Below are positions 2,219 through 17,000 of a stretch of DNA of 20,033 bases, one piece after another. This DNA comes from a virus. Positions within the stretch are counted from its first letter, which is position 1; every line of letters starts with the position of its first letter. The notes beneath the pieces were generated by a model, which saw only the letters and a list, made by a program, of their open reading frames with translations, was not told where the DNA came from and searched no databases. Where the stretch lies: positions 1-20,033 of the IMG/VR virus record IMGVR_UViG_3300025117_000433, one strand, 5' to 3'. The translations under genes and the position numbers were made by a program.

Positions 2219-3415
2219 ATGGGACGAAACTATAACAAACCAATTCTGGATGAAGAAAACAACCCTATCAAGATTGCTGAATTAGGAGATCATCATTGTA
2301 TCAGATGTGTGAAAAAGGCAAATGCATTTAAGAAAGTAGGTTATGAAATTCACGGAATGGGTAGTAGACCATCTTTTGGTACTGATGTATATGATACATA
2401 TCATACATTTAAGAATCAACACCAATTTAAAATGGCAATTAAAAACTTAATTCAAACAGGTGTTAGAATATTCACATGGAACAATGAACCTCACCACCAA
2501 GCAGTATGGACGAGAGAAGTCATTACTGAAATGGGTGTTAGGGATAAAGTAAAATTAATTATTGATGTACACGACAGCGATCTGATAAGAAGGGCATTTG
2601 CACCATTAGATGAAATCAATATGTTTAGGGTAGCAGATGGAATAATTTATGCTAGTTTGCCAATCCAACAGAAGCTAAATCGTGCTTATAGGATAAATGT
2701 ACCATATACTACTATTTACTCATACTGTAATGAGGGTATTATAGAATATGATAAAGATGCTCCACGTAAGAATGCTTTAGTCTACGAGGGTGGGGCCAAT
2801 CCTTTCGGCAATGCCCAATACGACGAAGCATTCCGTTATAGGAGTTTGTATCATATTATGAAACAACTTGTGGAACAAGGAAATCAAGTGGAAATGTTTC
2901 TAGGAAATATTGACGCATACGAAACTTATCATGACACAGGTGCTGTTTTATATCCACCAACCGACTATAAAGAGATGATGACTGCTTTAACAAAATTTAA
3001 GTATGGGTTGTGTATTTTTAATAACGAAAAGAGAGATCAGCCGCAAGTACAACTCACGATTACGAATAAACAATTTGAATATTTACAAGCAGGACTTCCA
3101 ATACTGGCTTGCTATTGTCCAGAAGTAGAAAAGTATGTAAGAAAACACAGGATTGGGTTCACATTTGAGAATCTCTCTGATATAGGGAATATGTCTCATC
3201 TTGAAGATAAATATAAAGAAGTGTATGAGAATATACAAATTAAACGTAAAGAACTGATAATGGAAAACTATATACAACGATTGGAGTGTTTGTATGCTTT
3301 CGTACTTGGTCTAAAAGGAAAGGCAATAGATAGAGATACTAAAAAACGACATATCTTTGAGTATGGCAAAGACGACGCCATGCATTGCTTTGATTACAAT
3401 AAGAGGGTGATTTAA
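2219..3415 (+). CDS. GT-B fold glycosyltransferase (GT4-like)
   Basis: A 398-residue soluble protein. The C-terminal half has the layout of a GT-B nucleotide-sugar-binding domain: a new Rossmann start at LVYEGG (about 187-192) and the motif NKQFEYLQAGLPILA (about 283-297), close to the (K)xxEYxAxGxPxxx signature of GT4/group 1 enzymes, where the Glu (E287) usually contacts the donor. The N-terminal half (IAELGDHHCIRCVKKA, then IIDVHDSDLIRRA near 114-126) would be the acceptor domain. The ATG at 2219 follows AGAGGA at 2209-2214, which overlaps the stop of the upstream gene, so the two are probably co-translated. Phage glycosyltransferases are known to modify virion proteins, phage DNA or host surface glycans; the sequence does not say which. 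Its position between a Thr/Ser-rich protein and the tail tube gene favours a virion target, by inference only. Confidence 0.8.
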   Translation: MGRNYNKPILDEENNPIKIAELGDHHCIRCVKKANAFKKVGYEIHGMGSRPSFGTDVYDTYHTFKNQHQFKMAIKNLIQTGVRIFTWNNEPHHQAVWTREVITEMGVRDKVKLIIDVHDSDLIRRAFAPLDEINMFRVADGIIYASLPIQQKLNRAYRINVPYTTIYSYCNEGIIEYDKDAPRKNALVYEGGANPFGNAQYDEAFRYRSLYHIMKQLVEQGNQVEMFLGNIDAYETYHDTGAVLYPPTDYKEMMTALTKFKYGLCIFNNEKRDQPQVQLTITNKQFEYLQAGLPILACYCPEVEKYVRKHRIGFTFENLSDIGNMSHLEDKYKEVYENIQIKRKELIMENYIQRLECLYAFVLGLKGKAIDRDTKKRHIFEYGKDDAMHCFDYNKRVI

Positions 3416-3418
3416 ATC
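3401..3418 (+). promoter_or_regulatory. Shine-Dalgarno and probable ATC start of the first major tail protein
   Basis: AAGAGGGTGAT (3401-3411) resembles the extended anti-SD complement AAGGAGGTGAT, differing only by an A/G swap at positions 4-5. It lies inside the last codons of the glycosyltransferase. The next in-frame codon after the TAA at 3413-3415 is ATC at 3416. The leader aligns with that of the paralogue downstream (GTGAT...TAAAATGGGAA before 4985), placing ATC where the paralogue has ATG. No ATG, GTG or TTG occurs in this frame before 3503. Confidence 0.6.
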
Positions 3419-3988
3419 GGAAATGTAAATAACTATAGTATCGGTAAAGCCACTCTCTATTTCAGCGAAGGGGCTGCTCAAGCATCACCCTCTGCTGCAA
3501 GGATGGATGATCCAATATCGTTCGGAAATATTGAGGTTGCAGAAATCACTCCTGATATAAGTTATGTGGAACATTATGTTTCACTCAAAGGTTGTAGAAA
3601 GAAAGATAAGGATTTAGTTGAAACGAAAAAGGTAACAATTCCGTTCACATTCGATGAAATTTCTGCCAGTAATGTTAAGTATTTTATGCATGGTGGCACG
3701 ACAATTGCAAGTACTTTCTCTGTGATGTCTAAAAATAGCATTGAGGGAAGAGCAATATTACAGTTCAATACAGATGTGGGTAATGAATTTCTTTATGTCA
3801 TACCAAAAGTAGTTCTGAAAGCAGAAGGAGGATTATCATTGCAGGCAGACTCATGGATAAATGGACAGTTTACATTAGAGGTGTTGAACCATCCAAGGTA
3901 TAGAGTATACGATTCATCTACAGCGTCGTTGGCTCCATATGGGTATTTTGATTATGATAATCCGAGTGTGATTGGCTCACCGTTTTAA
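3416..3988 (+). CDS. Major tail protein paralogue 1 (tail tube), probable ATC start
   Basis: Homologous to the gene at 4985-5608. The paralogy is visible from the N-terminus (NNYSIGKATLYF against GNYTIGAAELYF), through FGNIEVAEITPDISYVEHYV against FGNITDIELSPEISYLDHYV, to the C-terminal SSTASLAPYG against TSTASIKAPYG. The first conventional start, ATG at 3503, would remove the first 29 residues that the paralogue keeps, so I place the start at ATC 3416, giving 190 residues. The size and position, before the G/GT chaperones and tape measure, fit a lambda V-type tail tube subunit that stacks as rings around the tape measure. The ATC sits immediately after the glycosyltransferase stop, in the same frame, so re-initiation by terminating ribosomes is plausible. 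It could instead be a minor or decaying copy. The tail tube role is inferred from synteny and paralogy. Confidence 0.65.
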   Translation: MGNVNNYSIGKATLYFSEGAAQASPSAARMDDPISFGNIEVAEITPDISYVEHYVSLKGCRKKDKDLVETKKVTIPFTFDEISASNVKYFMHGGTTIASTFSVMSKNSIEGRAILQFNTDVGNEFLYVIPKVVLKAEGGLSLQADSWINGQFTLEVLNHPRYRVYDSSTASLAPYGYFDYDNPSVIGSPF

Positions 3989-4037
3989 TGACGATAATAT
4001 AAAGTAGATAAGATAAAGCATAATATTGGAGAATGTT

Positions 4038-4961
4038 ATGAACGAATCTGAGAGAGAACATAGATTAGAGATAATTAAAAAGTACTATTTGAGTGATAAA
4101 AAGAAAAAAGCCGAAATAGCAGAAATACTAGGAATATCATTTGGTAAACTTGGATTGTTTTTAAAAGAAAACGGTTTAAAGAAACCAATTAAATACAAAC
4201 CTCACATGAATAGGGATTGGGTATATCAAAAGTATGTAGTTGAAAGATGGACAGGGAGAGAAATTGCAAAGTTTTGTGAAGTAAGTTGGCCATCTGTATA
4301 TAAATGGTTGAGAAAATTTAATATAGAAGTAAGACTACATAAAGACTCAATGCACGGGGGAGATAGGTATATATGTAAGAAATGGAATTCTGAAATAGAA
4401 GAATTTCTTACGGGCGAGTTACTAGGTGATGGTTGTTTGGTAAGTAATTGTGCATATACAGCATATTATATGCATAGTACGTCAAAAAGAAATTATTTAG
4501 TTTGGTTAGAAAAAATATTTAATTTATCTGGAATAGAAAAAGTAGGAAGAATAAGAGAATATAAAGGATACAGATCTCCAGATAATGTTTTTTATTCAAT
4601 GACAACTAGAACATATAAAGAGTTTAAAACTTTATATGAAAAATTTTATCCTAATGGAAAAAAGATTGTACCTAAAGATTTAATTTTAACTCCATTAGTA
4701 GTTAGGCAGTGGTATATTGGTGATGGCAGTATTTCCAAAAGAGAAAACGCTGCTAGTATAGCAACAAACGGTTTTACTGAGAATGATGTAGATTTTTTGA
4801 TTGAGAAATTAATACAACTTGGTATTAGTGCAAGTAAATGTAAAAGTAGATCTGGACATACTTTATACGTTCCAGTAAAAAGCGCAAAAGTATTTTTTGA
4901 CTTTATAGGAAAGTGTCCAGATGAATTAGAAAACGTATATGGCTATAAATGGCCTAGATAA
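4038..4961 (+). CDS. LAGLIDADG homing endonuclease (LAGLIDADG_2-like), free-standing
   Basis: A 307-residue protein from ATG 4038, preceded by TTGGAG at 4026-4031; an in-frame TTG at 4026 is less likely because it is that ribosome binding site. Two LAGLIDADG-type helices are visible: LTGELLGDG at 124-132 and VVRQWYIGDG at 221-230, with putative catalytic acids D131 and D229. The phrase LTPLVVRQWYIGDGS is typical of the LAGLIDADG_2 group. Before the catalytic core lie two helix-turn-helix-like units (about 8-48, KKAEIAEILGIS, and 60-98, TGREIAKFCEVSWPSVYKWL), which probably bind DNA. Such enzymes cut a long asymmetric site in alleles lacking the element and so spread by repair. It sits between two complete paralogous tail genes; I see no intron or intein boundaries, so it is best read as an intergenic element. 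Confidence 0.9.
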   Translation: MNESEREHRLEIIKKYYLSDKKKKAEIAEILGISFGKLGLFLKENGLKKPIKYKPHMNRDWVYQKYVVERWTGREIAKFCEVSWPSVYKWLRKFNIEVRLHKDSMHGGDRYICKKWNSEIEEFLTGELLGDGCLVSNCAYTAYYMHSTSKRNYLVWLEKIFNLSGIEKVGRIREYKGYRSPDNVFYSMTTRTYKEFKTLYEKFYPNGKKIVPKDLILTPLVVRQWYIGDGSISKRENAASIATNGFTENDVDFLIEKLIQLGISASKCKSRSGHTLYVPVKSAKVFFDFIGKCPDELENVYGYKWPR

Positions 4962-4984: not shown

Positions 4985-5608
4985 ATGGGAACAATTTCTA
5001 CTGGCAACTATACGATTGGTGCCGCCGAACTTTATTTTGAAGCTTCTGTAGGAAATGCTTCGCTTGATGAAGGAACTTCTAATGGTGTTGGGTCTGCGTT
5101 CAGAACCGCAGCCAGGAGATTTGGCAATATTACTGATATTGAGCTATCTCCAGAAATTTCTTACCTCGATCACTACGTGATCACTCAAACTGGTGTGAAA
5201 CAGAAAGACTTAACTGTTGCTAATGAACTATCTTTGGCAATAAATTTTTCATTCGATGAAGTGAATTCGACAAATTTAAGAAAGTTTATGTTTGGTAGTC
5301 AAGTAGTAGATGCAAGTTTGGCTTCTCCACTTACTATGAGTCCAGTCTTTACAGTTATGAGTAATACTCTTAGCTACGGTTCGGCTCAGATTTATTTTAG
5401 AACTGGTGTTGGTAGGGACTTCGTTTACCTTATACCGAAGTGCACAATTAGGCCAGATGGAGCCATGCCCCTTACGAGTGAGGATTGGATCTCTGCTGGT
5501 ATGGTTCTGGAGGTTTTCAACTATCCAGCATGGAACGCTGTAAATATAGCTACTTCCACTGCATCAATTAAAGCGCCCTATGGTCTTATCAGTATGACTG
5601 CAATCTAA
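4985..5608 (+). CDS. Major tail protein paralogue 2 (tail tube)
   Basis: A 207-residue protein. I choose ATG 4985 over the in-frame GTG 4973 because AGGATGTGAT (4968-4977) lies about 7 bases before the ATG, and because the first residues then align with paralogue 1. The protein has no membrane segment or signal peptide and looks beta-rich. A slightly longer N-terminal region than in paralogue 1 (around residues 20-40) contains a Gly/Ser-rich stretch. It is followed by a strong hairpin and then by the G/GT chaperone genes, the usual place of the lambda V-type tail tube gene. With its good start signal and the hairpin behind it, this is the likelier main tube subunit. Assignment rests on synteny and paralogy, not on a diagnostic motif. 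Confidence 0.75.
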   Translation: MGTISTGNYTIGAAELYFEASVGNASLDEGTSNGVGSAFRTAARRFGNITDIELSPEISYLDHYVITQTGVKQKDLTVANELSLAINFSFDEVNSTNLRKFMFGSQVVDASLASPLTMSPVFTVMSNTLSYGSAQIYFRTGVGRDFVYLIPKCTIRPDGAMPLTSEDWISAGMVLEVFNYPAWNAVNIATSTASIKAPYGLISMTAI

Positions 5609-5670: not shown

Positions 5671-6036
5671 ATGAAAAAAACTGATGAAGAAATTCTCTTT
5701 CCAGATGTAAAGGTTGGTAAAGTTGTAGTTAAACCCTGGTCATTCGGTGTCTTGTTTGAAATTTCCGATCTTGTTGATAGTGTTCTTAATAAGATGGAAA
5801 GTAAGAATCTTGGATTCGATTCTCTCTTTACGTCAGACGGCACTATCACATTTATCACCATTGGTAAATTGTTTACCATTGCATCCCCTGAAGTACTAAA
5901 AATCATTTCTATTACGACTGGATTGTCGGATGAAGATATTAAAAAGTTGCCTATGGAAGATGGTATTAAGATTGCATTCACTATCTTCTCTCAGAATAGA
6001 GATACCATAAAAAACGCACTAAACTCCCTGACGTAA
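5671..6036 (+). CDS. Tail assembly chaperone, G-like (0-frame product)
   Basis: A 121-residue protein starting at ATG 5671 with AAGGA (5656-5660) upstream. It lies between the major tail protein and tape measure genes, the position of lambda G. It is mildly acidic and probably mostly helical, with no membrane segment. Lambda gpG (140 residues) binds the tape measure protein and, with its frameshifted form gpGT, recruits tail tube subunits; a similar role is inferred here. The identification is supported mainly by synteny, size and the slippery heptamer near the end of the gene (6009-6015), six codons before its TAA, from which a -1 shift enters the downstream frame. Sequence motifs alone would not identify this protein. 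Confidence 0.8.
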   Translation: MKKTDEEILFPDVKVGKVVVKPWSFGVLFEISDLVDSVLNKMESKNLGFDSLFTSDGTITFITIGKLFTIASPEVLKIISITTGLSDEDIKKLPMEDGIKIAFTIFSQNRDTIKNALNSLT

Positions 6037-6050: not shown

Positions 6051-6431
6051 AAGAAACGAAAACGCAAGACAATCGAGTTAGCTGAAATATTCAACACACT
6101 TATATCTAACGGTCATCATATAGACGATATTAAATATAGGTACACTATGGATCAAGTGTACAGATTCTATGAGGACTGTAGAAAACAAGACTTAGACAAA
6201 CAGAGAGATTTAGCTATTACAGTTGCCAACTGTCTTATTTTTGCTAGTCCTGCTAATAGTAAAGGGGATGTTAGAAAAAAGAATAAGGCGTGGGATAAGT
6301 TTATGGATGGGTTGGATTGGGATAAACTTACCAATAAAGAAAAAAAGAATACTGTTCAGGATATTGAGAAAGTAGCATCTATGTTTGGTATTCCGATCTT
6401 GAGTAAGAAAGAAGAGGAAGTGAGTGGCTAG
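6015..6431 (+). CDS. T-like extension of the GT tail assembly chaperone (reached by -1 frameshift)
   Basis: This frame is -1 to the G-like gene and is open without stops from before the slippery site to TAG 6429-6431. After slippage at 6009-6015 the next codon is CGC at 6015, adding 138 residues to the first 115 of G, so the fusion is about 253 residues against 279 for lambda gpGT. An ATG at 6147 could start a 94-residue free protein, but no clear ribosome binding site precedes it and the coding signal (lysine-rich, then TIELAEIFNTLI) extends well upstream, so I treat it as part of the fusion. In lambda the T domain contacts the tail tube protein while G contacts the tape measure. The stop overlaps the tape measure GTG by one base. 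Confidence 0.83.
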   Translation, partial: RTKLPDVNSAGSKKRKRKTIELAEIFNTLISNGHHIDDIKYRYTMDQVYRFYEDCRKQDLDKQRDLAITVANCLIFASPANSKGDVRKKNKAWDKFMDGLDWDKLTNKEKKNTVQDIEKVASMFGIPILSKKEEEVSG

Positions 6432-11361: not shown

Positions 11362-11372
11362 TGATATAAATA
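11362..11372 (+). repeat. Direct repeat, left copy (TGATATAAATA), upstream of the HNH gene
   Basis: TGATATAAATA occurs here and again at 12215-12225, each just after an AGG ribosome-binding core and just before the start codon of the following gene. The two copies bracket the HNH gene exactly. Both contain the octamer TATAAATA, which equals the T4 late promoter core, but nothing else here points to T4-type late transcription. Confidence 0.65.
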
Positions 11373-12211
11373 TGACAACTAAAATATGTTCCAAATGTAA
11401 AAGAGAATTAAGTATTGAAATGTTCTGTAAGGATAAGAGTAGAAAAGACGGACTATATTGTTATTGTAAAGATTGTAAAAAAGAAAATGGTAAAAAATAT
11501 AATGAAAATAATAGAGAAAGAAGATTAAAATACGGTAAAGAGTATTATAAAAATAATAAAGAAAAAAAATCAGAATATGGTAAAAAACATTACAAAGAAA
11601 ATAAAGAGAAAAGGGCAGAATATTATAAGGAACGCAGTAAAAATAATAAAGATAAGATAAATGCATATAGTAAAAAATATCGTAATTCTAACGCTCTTTA
11701 TCTTACCTATGTTAATAGACTAACTGTAGAAGAAGATCCAATTTCAGATGAAAATGGGTATTTGCTTGTTAGATGTACTCATTGTAAAAAATATTTTTAC
11801 CCAACTAATTCTAAAGTAAAATCCAGATGGGAGTCTTTAACTGGTATAACATCAGGAGAAAATAGATTATATTGCTCAGACGCCTGTAAACACTCTTGCC
11901 CATTATATGGGTTTGACCCACACCACCAATTTCAGCCTGGATCAAAAGAATGGGAAGAGAAACAAAACAAAGGGCCAAATAGAGATCCAGTATTGCAGGC
12001 AGATTGGAGAAAGATGGTACTAGAACGAGACGATTATAAATGTGTTAAATGTGGTGCTACCGAAAATCTAACCGCCCACCATGTCGAGGGTATACATTGG
12101 AATCCATTAGAAAGCGTCGATATTGATATTGGTATAACACTTTGTGAATCTTGCAATAGAAAAGCACACTCACTGGAAGGGTGTTCATATTACGATATGA
12201 GATGTAAATAA
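11372..12211 (+). CDS. HNH endonuclease with zinc-finger N-terminus (free-standing homing-type)
   Basis: A 279-residue protein from ATG 11372, 12 bases after the tape measure stop. The N-terminus has a zinc-binding CSKC (6-9) and CKDC (32-35) pair. A strongly Lys/Asn/Glu/Tyr-rich segment (about 40-105) follows, made of repeated 12-14-residue units of the type Y-x-K-x-N-K-E-K-x-x-E-Y, probably helical and DNA-binding. A second cysteine set lies at CTHC (135-138) and CSDAC (168-172). The HNH nuclease core is at the C-terminus: DWRKMVLERDDYKCVKCG (211-228), then AHH (235-237), N244, and LCESCNRKAH (257-266), giving the Cys4 zinc frame plus the His-His...Asn...His signature. It probably nicks or cuts DNA at a tail-gene site and spreads like phage homing HNH genes. 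It is flanked by an 11-bp direct repeat and interrupts the tape measure to M-like gene junction. Confidence 0.92.
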   Translation: MTTKICSKCKRELSIEMFCKDKSRKDGLYCYCKDCKKENGKKYNENNRERRLKYGKEYYKNNKEKKSEYGKKHYKENKEKRAEYYKERSKNNKDKINAYSKKYRNSNALYLTYVNRLTVEEDPISDENGYLLVRCTHCKKYFYPTNSKVKSRWESLTGITSGENRLYCSDACKHSCPLYGFDPHHQFQPGSKEWEEKQNKGPNRDPVLQADWRKMVLERDDYKCVKCGATENLTAHHVEGIHWNPLESVDIDIGITLCESCNRKAHSLEGCSYYDMRCK

Positions 12212-14027: not shown

Positions 14028-17000
14028 TTGGCAAAGGTTTGCTTCAAAAACTTCTTAGAAGAGTCTGCTGACTATAAAGAGATAGAAAGAGATAAGTTGC
14101 TTTCTGCCGTATATGAGTATGCTAAGACTTGTGATGATGAATTATATGATCTGATTCTTCATCAGAAAGTTTCTATTAGAGTTAATGGTGAAATCATTCA
14201 TCCAGATGATTGGATGATTATTGATCTAACTCCGGATTCGGAAGTAGAGATTATACCGGCTTTAGGAGGTGGAGGTAAAGCTGCTGGTATGATAATGATG
14301 GTTATTGGTGTAGCTTTAATTGCAGTAGGACAGTATTATGCTGCTCCTTTAATGGCTGCCCAATTTGGAGCATTTACTGCATATCAAGCTATTACAATGA
14401 TTGGAGTTAGTCTAGCTCTTGGTGGATTATCCTCTCTTCTATTTGCTCCAGATCTTCCACAATTAGGATTAGGTAATGATCGTAACTCTCAAACTTATAG
14501 TTGGAGTGGAATAAGAACTACAGCACAATATGATTCTTGTGTTCCTATAGTTTATGGTACTCACAAAGTTGGCGGTAATTTAATATCTGCTTTCACTGAA
14601 AATTATCAAGAAGATAGTTATCTCTATATGCTAATTTCTCTTTGTGAGGGAGAGATAGCAGGAATTGTAAGAGAGAGTGACCATACTGAAGTTTGTTTAA
14701 CTAGTAATCCAGGAGATGCTTCTTATACTTACTATCCTCCAGCTATTGAAGTTGATGGTCAACCATTAAAAAATTACAATAATGTTGTATGGTGGTACAG
14801 AACTGGAACTGGAACTGAAAATGCATCATATGATCAGTATTATCCTTTTGTACAAAATAAGATTCCTGGATTTGACGGTGCTAGAATTCAAGTAGAGGAT
14901 GGCCGAGAACTAAGTACTGCTGGTGTAATTTACACTACTACTAAAGAAGTAGACGAGGTTACGGTTCGTGTAAAAGCACCACAACTATATGATACTGATA
15001 ATAAAGGAAAAATTGAAGCTCAGACAGTTACATATAAAATAGAATTTGCTCCGGCTAGTTCTGGTTCTTATACACTCTATGAACCCCCAGTATGGAAACC
15101 AGATGTAACAGTAATTACTTCTGTTTCTGATACGACTGCTGAAAATTTAATTTGTGAAAGATATTTGGACAATGATAGAGTATATGGAGATACTAGTAAA
15201 ACCAAATCATTTAGAGTTAGAATATTAGGAAATACATTTGTAGAATTTGATGATGGTGGATTTGATTTTGGAACAACAATAACTTATACTATAACATATG
15301 AAGTAACAACTGTTAATAATGACGATTTGACAGCCGGAGAGTATGCCGGTATTTTTAAAGCCAGCTCTTGGGCATATAGAGATCTAGGTGGGGGTACTCC
15401 TGCTCAATATAATGAACCAATTGTTTCTATTGGGGATTATTCAGTTAAACTAGATAAGGACTGTCAGGTTGGAGAAGAGTGGCAACTTTCTTCGGTAGAA
15501 GATACAGACGTTTCTAGAACAGGTTGGATTCCTCTTAAAGCCAAAACTACATCAGGACATTGGAGTGCAGTAACTCTAGATTTTAATAATGTATCTGGTG
15601 GTAATGGGAGAGGAATGTATGATATAAGGATTTCTAGAAGAACAGAAGTTTCTTCAGATTTTTCAAAACAAGACAAACTTTATCTTGATTCAGTTATTGA
15701 AACTGTTGAAGGAGAATTTATATACCCACATACGGCTTTGTTGGGCTTGAAAATCAAAGCTACAGGACAACTTTCTGGATCAGTCCCTAATATTACTACA
15801 ACAATAAAAGGAACGAAAATTAAAGTTCCAGATACTTCTGGTTCTGAAACTTTTGACCAACTATATTATGATGAAAATCAATCTAGATTTGAAACATCTG
15901 GTGGATTAGAAAGAACTTGGAATGGAACTACATATCAGACTGCAAAAGAATTTTCTAACAATGCAATGCTATGTGTTAGAGATTTGGTTCTTTCTTCTAG
16001 ATACGGACTTGGTTCTTATATAACAACTACCGATTTAAATCAAACTGATATTGCTGCTGCTATTAAGAAATGTCATATAGTGTATGATCCATATGCTGAT
16101 GCTAGTATGGACTATTTTGATTGGTGGTCAGAAACATCAGACAGCAATTGGTATAAACAGTGGTATGGTTTACCGTTTTATGGTAATTTAGAACCGGCAA
16201 CCAGTGGAGTTATAGCCGGTAGTGCATCTACTAGAGATATTGTTTGTTCTGGTGCCACCTATTATGCATTCTATTTTGCAGCCAGTACTGGATTGTATAT
16301 GAATATGCCATATACAGTTACAGTTACACTTAAAAACTGTAATTCTTCTGCACTAAATCTATATATTTATGGGTTTGATTTTTATGATGGATTAGAAGAT
16401 CTAAGATATATTACTTCTACTACCAGTATTGGAGATGGAACGCACACTCTAACATTTACCCCTAAAGTTTCCTATAATTTTCTTTGTGTAGGAGTCGGTG
16501 GAATAGAAGGAGCACAAGTTACAATTGATGATATATCTCTAATAGCCAGCATTACGGACAGATACCACACTTATGATGGTGTTTTAGATGCTTCTCAATC
16601 AGCAATGACTGCCTTGTTTGAGTTTTGTGACTCATTTAGATGTTGGCCTATTTGGAAAAACGGACAGTTTGCTTTTGTTATAGACCAAGATGATACACCA
16701 GAACATTCTCTCTCAATGGGTAATATTGTTGAAGGATCTTATAACCAAACATTTACTGCATTATCTGAAATTCCTTCTAGATTAGTTGGTCAGTTTACTG
16801 ATAGAACATTAGGATATGATCTAAGATCTGCTGTTGTGCGTGTTACTCAAAGTCATTTAAGAGAAATAAATGAAAGAACAATTGGTTTAAAAGGTATTGT
16901 ATCTAAAGAAAAAGCAGAACGTGAGTTAATATGGAAACTTAATAAAGTTATTAATTGCAATAAAATAATTAGTCTTAGAGCTGCACTTGACGCTATTCAT

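Follow-up and report, generated by a model that had tools for sequence, protein, structure and literature searches.

The window analysed here is a single virus record of 20,033 bases, which is the entire assembly and of which there is no second copy. Two diverged tail-tube paralogues, TTP1 and TTP2, lie in this one phage (Table 1). The ORF upstream of TTP1 closes with TAA at 3413–3415 and the next codon in the same frame is ATC, exactly where the original prediction had placed it. From this ATC, the TTP1 frame is open as far as TAA 3986–3988. Its earliest ATG, GTG or TTG is the ATG at 3503 (codon 30), again as predicted. The upstream ORF had been called a glycosyltransferase, a name to which the similarity of its C-terminal half to galactofuranosyl/glucosyltransferases lends weak support, all matches being weak. 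Further upstream, the GC content falls sharply from about 51% to 35% near 2100–2200, at the end of ORF 3–2210, which has no match in PHROGs, Pfam or NCBIfam; the drop may mark an acquired gene or an assembly junction.

Table 1. Features at the TTP1 locus and the position of its paralogue
Feature	Position	Strand	Basis
Upstream ORF, 398 aa, probable sugar transferase	2219–3415	+	ORF list; weak matches to PRK09814-type sugar transferases and PDB 4w6q
Extended Shine-Dalgarno (SD) AAGAGGGTGAT, within the final codons of the upstream ORF	3401–3411	+	Duplex energy with 16S 3' end; rarity in window
ATC, proposed (AUC) start codon of TTP1	3416–3418	+	Distance to NYSIG motif; opposite TTP2 ATG
TTP1, tail tube protein, 190 aa from ATC	3416–3988	+	PHROG 807, NF052337, AlphaFold2 model and Foldseek
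First in-frame ATG, codon 30, unlikely start	3503–3505	+	No SD; loses strand β1
TTP2, second tail tube protein, 207 aa, ATG start, extended SD	4985–5608	+	TTP1 alignment, family profiles, SD energy

TTP1 matches the profile of PHROG 807 (major tail protein with an Ig-like domain) with an E-value of 2.9e-15 and scores 59.8 bits against NCBIfam NF052337 (tail_tube_6XGR), just below the cut-off of 60. The AlphaFold2 model of TTP1, for which the alignment comprised the window and IMG/VR loci only, is of moderate confidence (mean pLDDT 71). Its best PDB match in Foldseek is 6xgr, the tail-tube protein of YSD1 (E 1e-7). The tail-tube identity given in the original prediction is confirmed by these three results. 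Family profiles, tube fold and, if ATC is the start, the distance to the N-terminal motif all place TTP1 among the Chi/YSD1-type tail tubes. TTP1 and TTP2 are 40% identical; no second tail-tube copy was seen in the available flanks of the fetched relatives. The intact TTP2, with an ATG and a strong SD, is located 1.0 kb downstream and could build the tail tube by itself, TTP1 being a silent copy that recently lost its start codon. We regard this as quite unlikely. The TTP1 frame is fully open with no decay seen, it retains a strong, well-spaced SD, and its scores against the family models are no lower than those of TTP2 (57 versus 46 bits for PHROG 807; 59.8 versus 46.3 bits for NF052337), so that TTP1 is not the more decayed copy.

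The two paralogues are separated by a free-standing LAGLIDADG homing endonuclease with an N-terminal HTH region (4026–4961), and an HNH-type endonuclease gene (11372–12211) is located between the tape measure gene and the next tail genes. The tail assembly chaperone region (genes 5671–6036 and 6147–6431) contains a slippery heptamer, A_AAA_AAC, at 6009–6015 in the frame of the chaperone gene. The -1 frame after it is open to 6431, an arrangement typical of λ G/GT-type programmed -1 frameshifting.

The expected N-terminus was derived from 44 loci (41 related IMG/VR loci, L004 and two annotated phages), a set that includes duplicates and near-duplicates such as L004/L011 and L005/L012. These were scanned for start codons ahead of the N-terminal motif NY[TS][IL]G. 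All 44, and TTP2, have an in-frame ATG 4–9 residues ahead of the motif, making its N residue 5–10; TTP1 is the sole exception. If ATC is taken as the first codon, NYSIG in TTP1 has its N at residue 6 (5 residues ahead), inside the family range. The only other codon that TTP1 offers within this range is GGA (4 residues ahead; N as residue 5). Only ATC differs from ATG by one base, and no other near-cognate codon lies at a distance from NYSIG that the family allows. The DNA alignment sets the TTP1 ATC opposite the TTP2 ATG at 4985, in agreement with the earlier proposal that the leaders and first codons of the paralogues align with ATC in place of ATG. Comparison with related loci had also been suggested. 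It yielded distant members, all with their own ATG ahead of the motif. Searches of IMG/VR for close orthologues yielded none for TTP1, TTP2, the tail-tip protein or the upstream enzyme, and those of GTDB genomes, phages and plasmids yielded none for TTP1.

That every other fetched family member uses ATG counts against initiation at AUC. It also fits a virus that has ATG, with the C at base 3418 introduced during sequencing or assembly, or taken into the consensus from a minority variant: the ATC is one base away from ATG, and the single 20 kb record has no second copy against which to set it. We judge such an error unlikely. The other conserved genes of the window show no frameshift or stop, which suggests good sequence quality, and nothing besides base 3418 itself hints at an error. 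Either a single-base error or a recent silencing of TTP1 would give an identical sequence.

Translation might instead begin at ATG 3503, the earliest canonical start codon of the frame, and give a short tube protein of 161 residues. This form still scores 56.7 bits on the NF052337 model, compared to 59.8 bits for the protein from ATC. It would, however, lack N6, Y7, G10 and L14, which are invariant in a 31-sequence family alignment and make up four of its eight invariant columns, as well as strand β1 (residues 11–18 of the model). The original prediction described all 29 residues lost from 3503 as conserved; this holds for the four invariant residues but not for the whole stretch. Residues 2–29 of TTP1 are identical to TTP2 at 15 of 28 positions, and 8 of these 15 residues are encoded by different synonymous codons, which indicates that the first 29 codons are conserved at the protein level. 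The SD ahead of ATG 3503 amounts to only -2.6 kcal/mol, at an unusable spacing. As the motif, these four invariant residues and β1 all precede 3503, a start there would remove essential parts, and we consider it very improbable.

The SD AAGAGGGTGAT ends 4 nt ahead of the ATC and matches AAGGAGGTGAT at 9 of 11 positions. Its position and strength are as originally described, “near-perfect” being slightly generous. Pairing with the 16S 3' end is predicted at -12.9 kcal/mol with an aligned spacing of 6, the strongest among the likely starts of the window; an SD of at least this strength at spacing 4–10 occurs at only 51 of 40,000 positions (7 clusters) over both strands of the window. For comparison, the SD of TTP2 ATG 4985 is at -12.3 kcal/mol, and those of the relatives range from -5.9 to -13.6 kcal/mol with spacings of 3–11. 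The leaders of the closest relatives are similarly built, with the SD within the final codons of the gene before, then TAA, and the start no more than 2–3 bases further on (for example GGAGGGATTTAAAAATG in L008 and GGAGAGATTTAAGCGATG in L003). Elsewhere in the window, the tail-tip (GpJ-like) gene at 14028 has an apparent TTG start that immediately adjoins the end of the NlpC/P60 gene at its TAA; the SD is similar to that of TTP1 (-11.4 kcal/mol, spacing 7).

The strong SD at proper distance would be superfluous if TAA 3413 were read through and the upstream enzyme thereby fused to TTP1. The two ORFs do share a frame and are separated by this TAA alone. However, the fetched relatives have no need of a fusion, an ATG of their own lying just ahead of the motif in every case, and the N-terminus of tail tubes is engaged in ring–ring contacts (PMC9022992). 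Read-through is, in our estimate, extremely improbable. Reassignment of TAA was also rejected: of the 12 genes listed for the window, 7 end in TAA and 5 in TAG.

Other candidate starts near the SD were discarded. A start at GTG 3407, which is part of the SD, would meet TAA at the third codon. ATG 3423 is in a different frame with TAA immediately after, so that the TTP1 frame could be reached only via a one-base insertion; its aligned spacing of 13 is too far from the SD, and the N of the motif would be residue 4, below the family range. The third frame has no start between its stops at 3400 and 3430. Inspection by eye of the two other frames ahead of TTP1 revealed no usable start.

TTP1 therefore has a homologous N-terminus without a canonical start and a strong extended SD at proper spacing, as would be looked for at a near-cognate start. 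The start position, 3416, is well supported by the N-termini of the family, by the energy and spacing of the SD, and by the core sequence that would be lost from ATG 3503. The AUC itself would probably be a weak start, rare but not unprecedented. The best explanation, which we hold to be moderately probable, is that translation of TTP1, as a genuine tail-tube gene, begins at AUC 3416 under the guidance of the extended SD, probably helped by re-initiation. This likelihood and those of the rival readings are judgements and were not computed. In such a mechanism, the extended SD helix (AAGAGGGUGAU) would hold the 30S subunit and place AUC in the P site, where the initiator tRNA would be accepted despite the third-base mismatch. 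As the AUC directly follows the upstream UAA (3413–3415), a ribosome that has just terminated there may re-initiate at AUC and raise the yield, coupling TTP1 to the upstream gene. In Escherichia coli, an SD promotes re-initiation, which becomes less frequent the further apart the two cistrons lie (PMC2268962).

The original prediction regarded AUC initiation as very rare in bacteria; the rarity stands, and there are precedents. The gene for IF3, infC, starts with AUU in E. coli and with AUC in Streptomyces (PMC5472188). It resembles TTP1 in its near-cognate AUY start, in Streptomyces with the very same codon; however, infC autoregulates via IF3, whereas no feedback is known for TTP1, which encodes a structural protein of the virion. 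In Staphylococcus aureus, cvfC1 starts with AUU and ccpN and infC with AUA, all with extended SDs, and reporter yields from AUA/AUU are about 10% of those from AUG in poor medium, one gene reaching as much as about 30% when the medium is rich (PMC13009471). There, as is proposed for TTP1, an extended SD helix at suitable spacing directs a non-canonical start; those starts are AUU or AUA in cellular genes and were mapped by ribosome profiling and reporters, whereas the AUC start of TTP1 is predicted from the sequence. Streptomyces sigR has a GTC start, proven by stop-codon scanning, in place of a wrongly annotated GTG (PMC5472188). Like the codon proposed for TTP1, its start codon has C as third base, and both leaders contain, within the SD, a GTG that is ruled out as the start (here GTG 3407); sigR differs in using GTC instead of ATC and in the experimental proof.

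Among tailed phages, orf28 of the Streptococcus thermophilus phage TP-J34 has a predicted AUU start for which resequencing excluded a sequencing error (PMC3952083). It likewise has an annotated near-cognate start, but the codon is AUU, the initiation is predicted only, and the gene, to the extent checked, does not encode a tail tube. A GTC start is annotated in phage RsoM1USA (PMC6389784). Our literature search, of incomplete coverage, found no phage gene with an ATC/AUC start. With these AUC, AUA, AUU and GTC precedents, TTP1 would belong to an already known kind of non-canonical start. Two tail-tube protein forms in one phage are known from SPP1, in which gp17.1 and gp17.1* occur at 3:1 (PMC8718954); those arise by frameshifting from one gene, whereas the window has two paralogous genes.

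We infer that initiation at AUC would yield less protein than AUG. An abundant virion protein would hardly be expected to rely on a start at about 10% of AUG, unless TTP1 is present only as a minor component or re-initiation makes good the loss. The AUC coupled to upstream termination might even serve deliberately to keep one tail-tube paralogue low and IF3-sensitive, giving a mixed tube with its stoichiometry set by the start codon; we consider this rather unlikely.

Gene callers restricted to ATG, GTG and TTG would shorten TTP1 by 29 residues, and these belong to the part of the tail-tube subunit needed for assembly. The AUC start affects a structural gene that exists in two diverged copies. 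If real, it would extend the short list of near-cognate starts by one from a phage structural gene, and TTP1 would be a natural test case for the ability of an extended SD and of re-initiation next to a stop codon to rescue AUC. Should the tail contain both TTP1 and TTP2, their ratio could be set simply through the start codon.
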